22,350 nt of DNA from a virus, in IMG/VR virus record IMGVR_UViG_3300042868_005185, positions 1 to 22,350 of that record. One strand, 5' to 3'. Within the stretch, counting starts at the first letter, position 1. Each line of letters opens with the position of its first letter. Positions 6,562 to 9,695 of this stretch are shown one piece after another. The position numbers and the translations under genes are program-made. The notes below the pieces were generated by a model. It did no database searches. It saw only the letters and a list, made by a program, of their open reading frames with translations, and was not told the origin of the DNA.

Positions 6562-7443
6562 ATGCAAGACGCTGAAACGCCTGAACTGATCGAAGACGAA
6601 GCGCTGCCCGAGGCAGAATCAGACGCTGAGGCCCCCGATACTGGGGAAGAACAGGAAAGCGATGAGGCGGCAGATGCGCCGGATACTGAAGGCCCGCCCG
6701 GCGATGATGACGAGCTAGTTATCACGCTGGGCGAGGAGCAGCCCGAGCCGGAGCCGGAGGAAACCCCGGTTATCCGGCAGATGCGTCAGGCTTTGAAAGA
6801 AGCCAAGCGCCGCGAGCGCGAGAAGGACGCAATCCTCCAGCAACTCCAAGCCCGCCCCGCTGCGCCCGAGCCGCAAGACCCCGGCCCGATCCCCAAGATC
6901 GCGGACTTCGATTTTGACGACGACAAGCACGCCGCTGCCGTCAGCGAGTGGACCGCCAAGAAGGCCGCTGCCGAGCTTGCCAAGGCACAACGGCAACGCC
7001 AGCAGCAGGAACAGCAGGAGGCGTGGAACAAGCGCGTCCAAGCCTATGAGCAGGCCAAGACCGCGCTGAAGGTGCCGCGCTTCGATGACGCTGAGGAGGC
7101 GGTCAAGGATACGCTGACCATCGCGCAGCAATCCCTGATTCTCAAGGCCAAGGAGCCGGAGAAACTGATTTACGCGCTGGGCAACAACCCCAAGCGCCTC
7201 AAGGCTCTGGCCGCCATCACAGACCCGGTGGATTTCGTTTATGCCGTGGGCGAACTGCGGCAGGAGATGCGCGTGATTCCCAAGAAGAAGCCCCCGGTCC
7301 CTGAGCGCGTGCCTGCCCGTGGCGGCGCTGGCGGCTATACCACCGCAGATAACTCGCTGGAGAAACTGCGCGCGGAAGCCGAGAAAACCGGCGACTATTC
7401 CAGAGTGCTGGCCTATAAGCGTGACATGAAGGCCAAAAAGTAG
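6562..7443 (+). CDS. Scaffolding protein, P22 gp8-like
   Basis: This 293-residue, highly charged helical protein lies between portal and coat, the position and size of P22 scaffold (303 aa). The first 70 residues are extremely acidic and Pro-rich (DEALPEAESDAEAPDT and similar), residues of about 70-100 are a coiled coil (MRQALKEAKRREREKDAILQ), and a second Gln-rich helix lies near 145-170. The C-terminus is a basic helix pair (about 268-293, ending KRDMKAKK), matching the coat-binding end of P22 scaffold, which is a basic helix-turn-helix. It directs procapsid assembly and then exits. The start follows a good GAGAGGA. The acidic N-terminus is much more extreme than in typical relatives, which may be host-specific drift. 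Confidence 0.85.
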   Translation: MQDAETPELIEDEALPEAESDAEAPDTGEEQESDEAADAPDTEGPPGDDDELVITLGEEQPEPEPEETPVIRQMRQALKEAKRREREKDAILQQLQARPAAPEPQDPGPIPKIADFDFDDDKHAAAVSEWTAKKAAAELAKAQRQRQQQEQQEAWNKRVQAYEQAKTALKVPRFDDAEEAVKDTLTIAQQSLILKAKEPEKLIYALGNNPKRLKALAAITDPVDFVYAVGELRQEMRVIPKKKPPVPERVPARGGAGGYTTADNSLEKLRAEAEKTGDYSRVLAYKRDMKAKK

Positions 7444-7451
7444 CGCATAAT

Positions 7452-7588
7452 CGGCGCGTGGCGCATACTCTGCGCCGGATTCGCCCACCCACGGGCAGGA
7501 AACTCGGCCACCGCTCGGCCTTAAACGAGCGAGCAAAGCAGCACGGGGCAACCCGTAACCCTTTCTCGTTTATTTGAGGTAAGCAATC
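7452..7588 (+). promoter_or_regulatory. Structured RNA leader upstream of the coat gene
   Basis: This untranslated gap can fold into several stems. One is a 6-bp hairpin (GGCGCA 7460-7465 with TGCGCC 7471-7476). Another is a perfect 8-bp helix (7522-7529 with 7565-7572) enclosing a 5-bp hairpin closed by a GCAA tetraloop (ACGGG 7543-7547, CCCGT 7552-7556). A competing 6-bp helix (CGCTCG 7512-7517 with CGAGCG 7526-7531) uses the same bases as the 8-bp helix, so the two cannot coexist. The Shine-Dalgarno GAGGT (7576-7580) begins four bases after the nested element. I infer control of coat mRNA stability or translation; no known RNA family is claimed. Confidence 0.55.
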
Positions 7589-8857
7589 ATGGCTAGTTTC
7601 AGCAAAGAAGAGCGCGTTGCGTTCGAGGACATTCTCGCGGGTTTCAACGACGGCTTGGTTCTGAGCCGCGCCGCCAAGGTGTACCGCACCGACAGCGCTT
7701 CGATGGAGCGCTCGCAGGACACCATTTGGCGCCCGATGCCTTACATCCTGCGCAGCCAGGATCGCACGATGGGTTCCGCCATCACGCCGGCCGATGGCAC
7801 GCAGCTTTCGGTGCCTTCCACCCTCGGCTTTCAGAAGAACGTGGCTTGGACGCTGAACGCCAAGGAACTGCGCGACCAACTGCAAGAAGGCCGCCTCGGT
7901 GAAGCCGCGTACCAGCGTCTGAGCACTGACGTGAACGTGGCCGTCATGGACGTGGCGAGCAACCAGGGCACGCTGGTGGTCCCCATCAACGGCGCCGCTG
8001 GCACCTACAACGATGTGGCCCGCTGCGACACGCTGATGAACCAAATCGGTGTGGCTTCGTCTGACCGTCACCTGTTCCTGTCGTCGGGCAGCTACAACGG
8101 CATGGCGAACAACCTCGCCATCGCCACCCGCAGCTTCGGCAACGCCAAGTCTGACAGCGCCTACGAGCGTGGTCTGGTTGGCCCGGTGGCTGGTTTCACG
8201 ACCAGCAAACTGGACTACGCGAACCGCATCGCTGCCACCTCGGCAGCCGTGACGATTGCCACCAACGGCGCGCAGGTTCGCTACGTCCCGCGTTCGACCA
8301 GCACCAGCGTGGGCGGCAAGATCAACGTGGACAACCGCTATCAGCAAGTCACCGTGTCGACCACGACCGGCGTGGTTGCTGGCGCGTGCTTCACGCTGCC
8401 GGGCATCGAGGCTGTGCACCTCATCACCAAGCGCAGCACGGGCAACCTCAAGACGTTCCGCGTCATCAGCATCGACAGCCCCACGACGATGACCATCAGC
8501 CCGCCCATGATCGGCGCGAACAGCAGCCCGACCGCTGCGGAGCTTCAGTACAAGAATATCGAAGTCGCTTCGACCAGCGCGACCGCTTCGATCACTTGGC
8601 TGAACATCGACGCGGCCGACATCAACCCGTTCTTCCACAAGGACGCGGTGGAAATCCTGCCGGGCCGCTACAGCCTGCCGGATGGCGCTGGCGTGGACAT
8701 CCTGCGCGGCAGCACCGACCAGGGCTTTGAGGTGGTCATGGGCAAGAAGTTCGACAACTCGACCTTCACAACCCTCTACACGCTGGACATCCTGTTCGGC
8801 GTCGTGATGACTCAGCCCGAAATGGCCGGAATTTTGATTTTCGAACAAACTCCTTGA
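7589..8857 (+). CDS. Major coat (capsid) protein, P22 gp5-like
   Basis: This 422-residue protein (P22 gp5 has 430) has the HK97-type fold with the P22 telokin-like insertion domain. Diagnostic stretches are MASFSKEERVAFEDILAGFN (1-20), the TIWRPMPYILRSQDRT segment (45-60), AWTLNAKELRDQ (86-97), and the C-terminal GFEVVMGKKFDNSTFTTLYT (379-398). Residues of about 216-340 are Thr/Ser/Val-rich beta sequence matching the place of the insertion domain. It is translated from a strong GAGGT with optimal spacing. Codon use is the most strongly biased in the window, as expected of the most abundant virion protein. The stop is at 8855-8857. Confidence 0.93.
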   Translation: MASFSKEERVAFEDILAGFNDGLVLSRAAKVYRTDSASMERSQDTIWRPMPYILRSQDRTMGSAITPADGTQLSVPSTLGFQKNVAWTLNAKELRDQLQEGRLGEAAYQRLSTDVNVAVMDVASNQGTLVVPINGAAGTYNDVARCDTLMNQIGVASSDRHLFLSSGSYNGMANNLAIATRSFGNAKSDSAYERGLVGPVAGFTTSKLDYANRIAATSAAVTIATNGAQVRYVPRSTSTSVGGKINVDNRYQQVTVSTTTGVVAGACFTLPGIEAVHLITKRSTGNLKTFRVISIDSPTTMTISPPMIGANSSPTAAELQYKNIEVASTSATASITWLNIDAADINPFFHKDAVEILPGRYSLPDGAGVDILRGSTDQGFEVVMGKKFDNSTFTTLYTLDILFGVVMTQPEMAGILIFEQTP

Positions 8858-8900: not shown

Positions 8901-9695
8901 ATGATCGTCTACAAGCTGACGTTTCCGGGTGGTAAGTCCTACATAGGGCAAACCTCTCGGAAACTGAAGGTCAGGGTTACTCAACACAGGCAAAGTGTGC
9001 GGCTTGGGAGTATGTTGGCCGTACACTGCGCATGGCGGGCACACGGGGAGCCAGAAGTTTTGACTCTCTGTGTGTGCCAAACTCAAGACGAACTGAACGA
9101 CGCCGAGCGGCGCCTGATTGACGAGCACAAAACCATGTCTCCCAACGGCTACAACGTCAGTATCGGCGGGGATACCGCGCCGAGTAAGATGCCATCCGTT
9201 GCCGCGAAGATTGCGGAGAAAGCGACTGGCCGCAAAGCTAGCGCGCAGACAAAGGCGCTGATGAGTCAGGCAATGCAGGCCATGTGGAGTTCTCCGGAGT
9301 ATCAGGCTAGGGTAAGCGAGCAAATCCGCGCGGCTTATCAAAAGCCTGAAGTCAGGGCGCGACACGTTGCGGCGCTGACCGCAGCATGGCGCAAGAAAGT
9401 GGCGGACGGTTGGGTTATGTCGCCCGAACATCGCGCCAAACTTTCCGCCCGCGAGTTTTCGGAAGAAACCCGCCAGCGGATGAGCGAGGCGGCCAAAAAG
9501 CGTATTCGTCAACCGGCTTCCGAAGAAACCCGCCGCAAGATGGCCGAAGCCGCAAAGCTGAAGCATGCGTCGATGACGCCGGAGGAGCGCGCTGAACGTG
9601 GCCGCAAGATCAGTGAAGGACGGCTCGCCGCCCTGCGCCAAGAAGTTGCCGTAACGGGTTTAGAGGGCTCCGGCCCTCGTTTTTTGGAGCACTGA
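8901..9695 (+). CDS. Freestanding GIY-YIG homing endonuclease with NUMOD3 repeats
   Basis: The N-terminus (residues 2-90) is a GIY-YIG nuclease: VYKLTF...KSYIGQT (3-18) with Tyr4 and Tyr14, the catalytic-type Arg25 in KVRVTQHR, the metal-ligand Glu69 in NDAERRLIDEH and the closing NGYNVSIGG (82-90). The remainder consists of NUMOD3-like DNA-binding units, clearest at about 187-202 (SEETRQRMSEAAKKRI) and 207-222 (SEETRRKMAEAAKLKH), with weaker ones around 175, 225 and earlier. This is a mobile gene that spreads by cutting empty sites in related phages. It interrupts the usual coat-to-gp4 order, and its base composition is visibly less GC-rich than its neighbours. The last ten or so residues are read through a terminator and are probably acquired sequence. 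The gene appears intact. Confidence 0.9.
   Translation: MIVYKLTFPGGKSYIGQTSRKLKVRVTQHRQSVRLGSMLAVHCAWRAHGEPEVLTLCVCQTQDELNDAERRLIDEHKTMSPNGYNVSIGGDTAPSKMPSVAAKIAEKATGRKASAQTKALMSQAMQAMWSSPEYQARVSEQIRAAYQKPEVRARHVAALTAAWRKKVADGWVMSPEHRAKLSAREFSEETRQRMSEAAKKRIRQPASEETRRKMAEAAKLKHASMTPEERAERGRKISEGRLAALRQEVAVTGLEGSGPRFLEH
9663..9685 (+). terminator. Intrinsic terminator overprinting the end of the endonuclease gene
   Basis: A perfect 6-bp GC-rich stem (GAGGGC 9663-9668, GCCCTC 9673-9678) with TCCG loop is followed by G and six T's (9680-9685). This is the best terminator in the window. It lies wholly inside the endonuclease ORF (codons 255-262) and just before GGAG, the ribosome site of the next gene. 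It would lower transcription of the tail genes relative to coat unless late transcription is antiterminated. Confidence 0.85.

Follow-up and report, generated by a model that had tools for sequence, protein, structure and literature searches.

A conserved leader of P22-type coat genes with a pseudoknot and two mutually exclusive folds, a probable translational switch

In T4, translation of gp32 is repressed by gp32 itself, by way of a pseudoknot located 5' of the start (PMC3014915), and a pseudoknot is also part of the translational operator of Escherichia coli rpsO (S15) (PMC3014915). The leader described in this work, which precedes a P22-type coat gene, shares with the T4 gene 32 operator an H-type pseudoknot in a phage mRNA, upstream of the ribosome-binding site and start (PMC3014915). 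In gene 32, however, unstructured A+U-rich RNA extends from the pseudoknot to the ribosome-binding site, and the RNA is bound by the gene's own ssDNA-binding protein (PMC3014915), whereas in the leader helix P3 or helices P4/P5 (listed below) occupy that region and the following gene encodes coat. Having no unstructured A+U-rich tract, the leader was not placed in the gene 32 type of operator. The rpsO operator differs in belonging to a ribosomal protein gene, and the leader was compared with it through the Rfam search only.

Translational riboswitches, with their platforms that sequester the Shine–Dalgarno sequence, are similar in another way: on comparative and computed evidence, the leader also has an upstream domain followed by exclusive anti-sequestor and Shine–Dalgarno-sequestor helices. 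It differs from them in being associated with a capsid gene, not with metabolism or transport, and in having no known ligand. The leader resembles a riboswitch expression platform, but only with a ligand could it be called a riboswitch.

The coat locus and the leader

The window, i.e. the whole stretch of DNA analysed, comprises 22,350 nt of the IMG/VR record IMGVR_UViG_3300042868_005185, and all coordinates are positions in it. An intergenic gap of exactly 145 nt separates the stop codon of scaffold (7443) from the ATG of coat (7589). The first-pass annotation considered this gap the largest non-coding one of the window, which is plausible: the interval 2372–2536 is longer by the ORF calls, yet by eye it holds one short open frame (about 2393–2536), apparently encoding a small hydrophobic protein. 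Directly 3' of the coat gene there is a GIY-YIG homing endonuclease with a NUMOD3 motif (8901–9695). The features of the locus are as follows.

6562–7443, plus strand: head scaffolding protein gene, the 5' neighbour (phrog_648, E 1.9e-48)
7421–7451, plus strand: possible sigma-70-like promoter (GTGACA, 19 nt, CATAAT; weak consensus only)
7444–7588: leader, the intergenic interval between scaffold and P22-type coat
7452–7477, plus strand: GC hairpin 5' of the pseudoknot (MFE pairs 7452–7458/7471–7477)
7476–7588, plus strand: whole element (covariance model R2 match, 59.9 bits, E 1.4e-13)
7477–7489, plus strand: stem S1 of pseudoknot 1, pairs 7477–7478/7488–7489 (homologue comparison)
7483–7496, plus strand: stem S2 of pseudoknot 1, crossing S1, GCCC 7483–7486 with GGGC 7493–7496 (homologue comparison)
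7506–7520, plus strand: probable stem P2, GGCC 7506–7509 with GGCC 7517–7520 (p 5e-5; p 0.004 to 0.15 after thinning)
7512–7531, plus strand: helix P3, anti-sequestor, 7512–7517/7526–7531 (covariation)
7518–7580, plus strand: sequestor extension, P3 loop 7518–7525 with the Shine–Dalgarno region 7573–7580 (MFE and loop:SD statistics)
7527–7571, plus strand: helix P4, base of the sequestor, excluding P3, 7527–7533/7565–7571 (covariation)
7543–7556, plus strand: hairpin P5 with a GCAA tetraloop, within P4 (fold and homologue comparison)
7576–7580, plus strand: coat Shine–Dalgarno GAGGT (sequence)
7589–8857, plus strand: P22-type coat gene, the likely regulated gene (PF11651, E 3e-77; phrog_283)

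The fold of positions 7444–7600 has an energy of −65.2 kcal/mol (z −4.1 relative to dinucleotide shuffles), and none of 200 shuffles was equally stable. Every pair given in the first-pass annotation can be found in the window sequence: an 8-bp helix (TAAACGAG at 7522–7529 with CTCGTTTA at 7565–7572), a 6-bp helix identical to P3 (CGCTCG at 7512–7517 with CGAGCG at 7526–7531) and the hairpin ACGGG-GCAA-CCCGT at 7543–7556; the extra GC hairpins that it had placed 5' of the competing helices are also present. Stem S1 has only 2 bp in the window and 3–4 bp in most relatives.

Of all pairs in the upstream 75 nt, the promoter candidate of the window scores best (p 0.01 versus shuffles). The best sigma-70-like −10 ends 5–17 nt 5' of S1 in 24 of 34 leaders, and 24 nt 5' of it in the window, while most individual promoter scores fall short of significance (p < 0.05 in 11 of 34). 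It is plausible that a local promoter is present, which would put the pseudoknot close to the 5' end of the RNA. At the position of the window's GC hairpin, relatives carry, by eye, an inverted repeat spanning the putative −10. In leaders L033, L036, L037 and L060 such repeats over the putative −10 vary in sequence with the palindrome kept, again by eye.

Homologous leaders and their distribution

Coat loci were collected by scanning viral contigs with the window coat and four further coats, and by one scan of species genomes. Homologues of the leader are found in the scaffold–coat interval of many related metagenomic phages and of a few bacterial genomes. The lengths of this interval are bimodal, either about 1–32 nt or about 118 nt upward, and the long gaps have a motif in common: pyrimidine-UCGCC, GGCAG, a GCC/CC stretch, GAG, a hairpin, CUC and the Shine–Dalgarno sequence. 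As the first MAFFT alignment misplaced the 3' strand of P4, the seed was segmented by hand. The covariance model R1 was built on 19 leaders, window included, with variable loops trimmed to common columns and missing positions given as N. A search of the loci with R1 yielded 35 aligned matches, window and its near-twin L001 excluded, which constitute model R2. R2 matches the window over its full length (59.9 bits, E 1.4e-13), a score obtained with R2 members that had been aligned by R1, which had included the window.

In 20 records the strong R2 match is single per record and always in the coat leader (E 0.42 for the divergent L010), and R2 detected no convincing further copies elsewhere in these phage genomes. 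A DNA pattern scan that is independent of the coat matched three contigs, in two of which the match again lies 5' of a P22-type coat; the third looks like chance. In line with the first-pass annotation, which could not name an RNA family, Rfam 15 gave no family at gathering threshold, and low-threshold searches gave only sub-threshold matches. Among the families tried, GP20-b (RF03003) was rejected, with a partial match to the window of 13.7 bits (E 1.8; gathering score 36.2) and, in a low-threshold search, none in four other leaders. The leader is undescribed in the openly accessible literature searched. Judged from sequence comparison, it is a conserved RNA of a previously uncatalogued family, associated with coat genes only in the material searched.

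Among the 162 coats placed on a tree, the leader is present in 43, absent in 108 and unclear in 11, i.e. it is found in 43 of the 151 classified. Its distribution requires 18 changes on this tree, versus about 38 when shuffled, so the leader clusters on the tree, though with frequent losses or gains. The nearest coat neighbour of the window (L006) is without it, as are many related phages and P22 itself. In the cultured or complete phages closest by coat (MW202867, MW202475, PfAn1 and P22), the gap is short or absent. The leader is present in the isolate genome of Massilia sp. ZL223 (L346, a prophage copy) and in MAGs labelled Burkholderiales (L342), Emcibacteraceae (L338) and Alphaproteobacteria (L345). 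Besides the prophage copy, a scan of 392 genomes of the Massilia family returned a single weak match (L350), which was discarded as its flanks are unlike a coat locus.

Some long intervals hold additional elements. Between scaffold and coat, L036 (323–911) and L077 (2496–2992) have an HNH endonuclease-like frame, recognized from sequence; in L036 it is inserted between leader and coat, so that the leader there precedes the endonuclease start. The long gap of L079 contains a frame with an SPPY motif (1734–2772), DNA methyltransferase-like by eye. In L009, L010 and L013 the coat is preceded by a leader of another kind, whose long outer helix reaches near the Shine–Dalgarno sequence (by eye); this type has no match by R1 and is matched weakly by R2 (L010, E 0.42).

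Two mutually exclusive folds

Pairing was counted in 34 leaders segmented by hand. Every one of the 34 forms the two inner pairs of S1 and three of the four pairs of S2, and two to four pair types are represented; P3 is formed in every lettered cell and P4 in nearly all, although no P4 could be placed in L104, L289 and L338. In 300 simulations of random substitutions along the coat-protein tree, none equalled the summed paired fraction or the covariation observed for S1, S2, P3, P4 and P5. Most weight is given to the counts from the model alignment and from the thinned sets, because hand segmentation may bias a few members towards pairing. In the model's own alignment, 90.8% of the cells of S1, S2, P4 and P5 are paired, versus 72.9% when shuffled and 35–48% when slid; P3, which is outside the model, is 92.9% paired, with 22 double-change cells versus 4.2 shuffled. 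Neither S2 nor P3 is part of the model structure, and both still covary on this alignment. When the leaders are reduced to 20, 15 and 10 sequences by coat distance, S1, S2, P3, P4 and pairing between the P3 loop and the Shine–Dalgarno sequence retain p ≤ 0.03. For P2 the respective values are 0.004, 0.045 and 0.15; this helix is likely, but we are less sure of it than of any other. P2 and P3 together would constitute a second pseudoknot.

Far from varying without compensation, both competing helices keep pairing through compensatory change, and covariation in homologous leaders strongly supports the earlier proposal of a cis-acting coat leader with two mutually exclusive folds. A bistable structure, made up of the crossing pseudoknot S1/S2 and the exclusive helices P3 and P4, is well supported by these comparisons. 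The 8-bp helix had been put at the right place, but in a register specific to the window: across 30 leaders this register averages 4.7 of 8 pairs and reaches 8 of 8 in the window only, and was rejected as the conserved helix. The conserved register, P4, uses the same 3' strand and a 5' strand shifted by 4 nt, the 8-bp strand being the farther upstream (7527–7533 with 7565–7571, and neighbours; mean 7.1 of 8 pairs in the same 30 leaders). Both registers may form in the window.

Two elements that together provide a plausible output for the switch had been overlooked in the first-pass annotation, namely the 5' pseudoknot and base pairing between the P3 loop and the Shine–Dalgarno sequence. This loop is complementary to the Shine–Dalgarno region, and their pairing directly prolongs P4. 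Cognate loop:SD pairing has an energy of −8.49 kcal/mol versus −6.30 for permuted pairs (p 5e-5), with 12 contiguous pairs in L291 and 11 in L311; four of six control segment pairs gave no signal, and two (I5:T and I5:I3) were weakly positive. In computed folds, forced P4 has a lower energy than forced P3 in 26 of 27 leaders, a comparison biased towards the closed state since the energy model ignores pseudoknots. Mean Shine–Dalgarno accessibility over the 27 leaders decreases from 0.40 with P3 forced to 0.24 with P4 forced (p 5e-4), a modest difference that is reversed in some members (L017, L195 and L236).

Possible function of the leader

The leader is probably a cis-acting translational switch on coat synthesis; comparison supports the two exclusive folds, and from these we infer the output and the default state. 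In the ON fold, the pseudoknot or pseudoknots and P3 would engage the middle strand, so that the 3' part and the Shine–Dalgarno sequence stay free and the coat can be translated. The OFF fold would close the site, with the middle strand and the P3 loop paired to the 3' strand of the sequestor (P4b) and to the Shine–Dalgarno sequence. The ON helices emerge earlier during transcription, whereas the OFF hairpin has the greater computed stability; new transcripts are therefore expected to be ON and then OFF, a passage that should take place unless the pseudoknots are held. Candidates for setting the state are feedback by coat or scaffold, a small ligand, or co-transcriptional timing alone. Tentatively, the pseudoknotted leader might represent a new class of sensing RNA, in which a metabolite, or free capsid or scaffold protein, is the signal by which production of the major capsid protein of tailed phages is switched at the level of translation.

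A feedback operator would be one specific form of the translational switch, with coat or scaffold binding the pseudoknot or P5 and so fitting coat synthesis to assembly. The P22 scaffold is known to limit its own synthesis post-transcriptionally, which is a point in favour of this possibility. So are the coat specificity of the element and the phage precedent of the T4 gp32 pseudoknot (PMC3014915); many close relatives nevertheless manage without the leader, and we regard such an operator as possible but somewhat doubtful. Timing without a ligand, where co-transcriptional folding gives an ON burst followed by OFF or couples coat output to transcription rate, is consistent with the early emergence of the ON helices and with the greater computed stability of OFF in 26 of 27 leaders (pseudoknot energies left out), but would not by itself explain the conserved 5' pseudoknot, and is rather unlikely. 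The 5' pseudoknot could also be the aptamer of a small-molecule riboswitch responding to a host metabolite. The aptamer-like 5' domain, the exclusive anti-sequestor and sequestor and the sequestration of the Shine–Dalgarno sequence are as expected for it; the alignment, however, has few invariant unpaired columns that could form an aptamer core, unlike typical metabolite aptamers, and the leader is associated with one gene type only, making this unlikely.

Explanations other than a switch were also considered. Were the leader a passive 5' UTR, with structure serving mainly to protect the mRNA or tune initiation and no regulated switching, the predicted nearby promoter would set this structure close to the RNA 5' end; such a UTR does not predict that one strand stays complementary to two partners, and seems to us improbable. 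The inverted repeats that overlap the putative −10 in relatives are what a DNA-level element (an operator, recombination or packaging site) might display. Covariation disfavours this reading and chance folding alike, as the sequence changes with pairing kept, crossing pseudoknot included, and both are very improbable.

We therefore retain the translational switch as the preferred reading. The balance of coat and scaffold in tailed phages is an old question, for which the leader supplies a defined, testable RNA, and its presence in the isolate Massilia sp. ZL223 makes a bench test possible. If the fold is indeed set by a ligand or a protein, the leader would be a new class of regulatory RNA.
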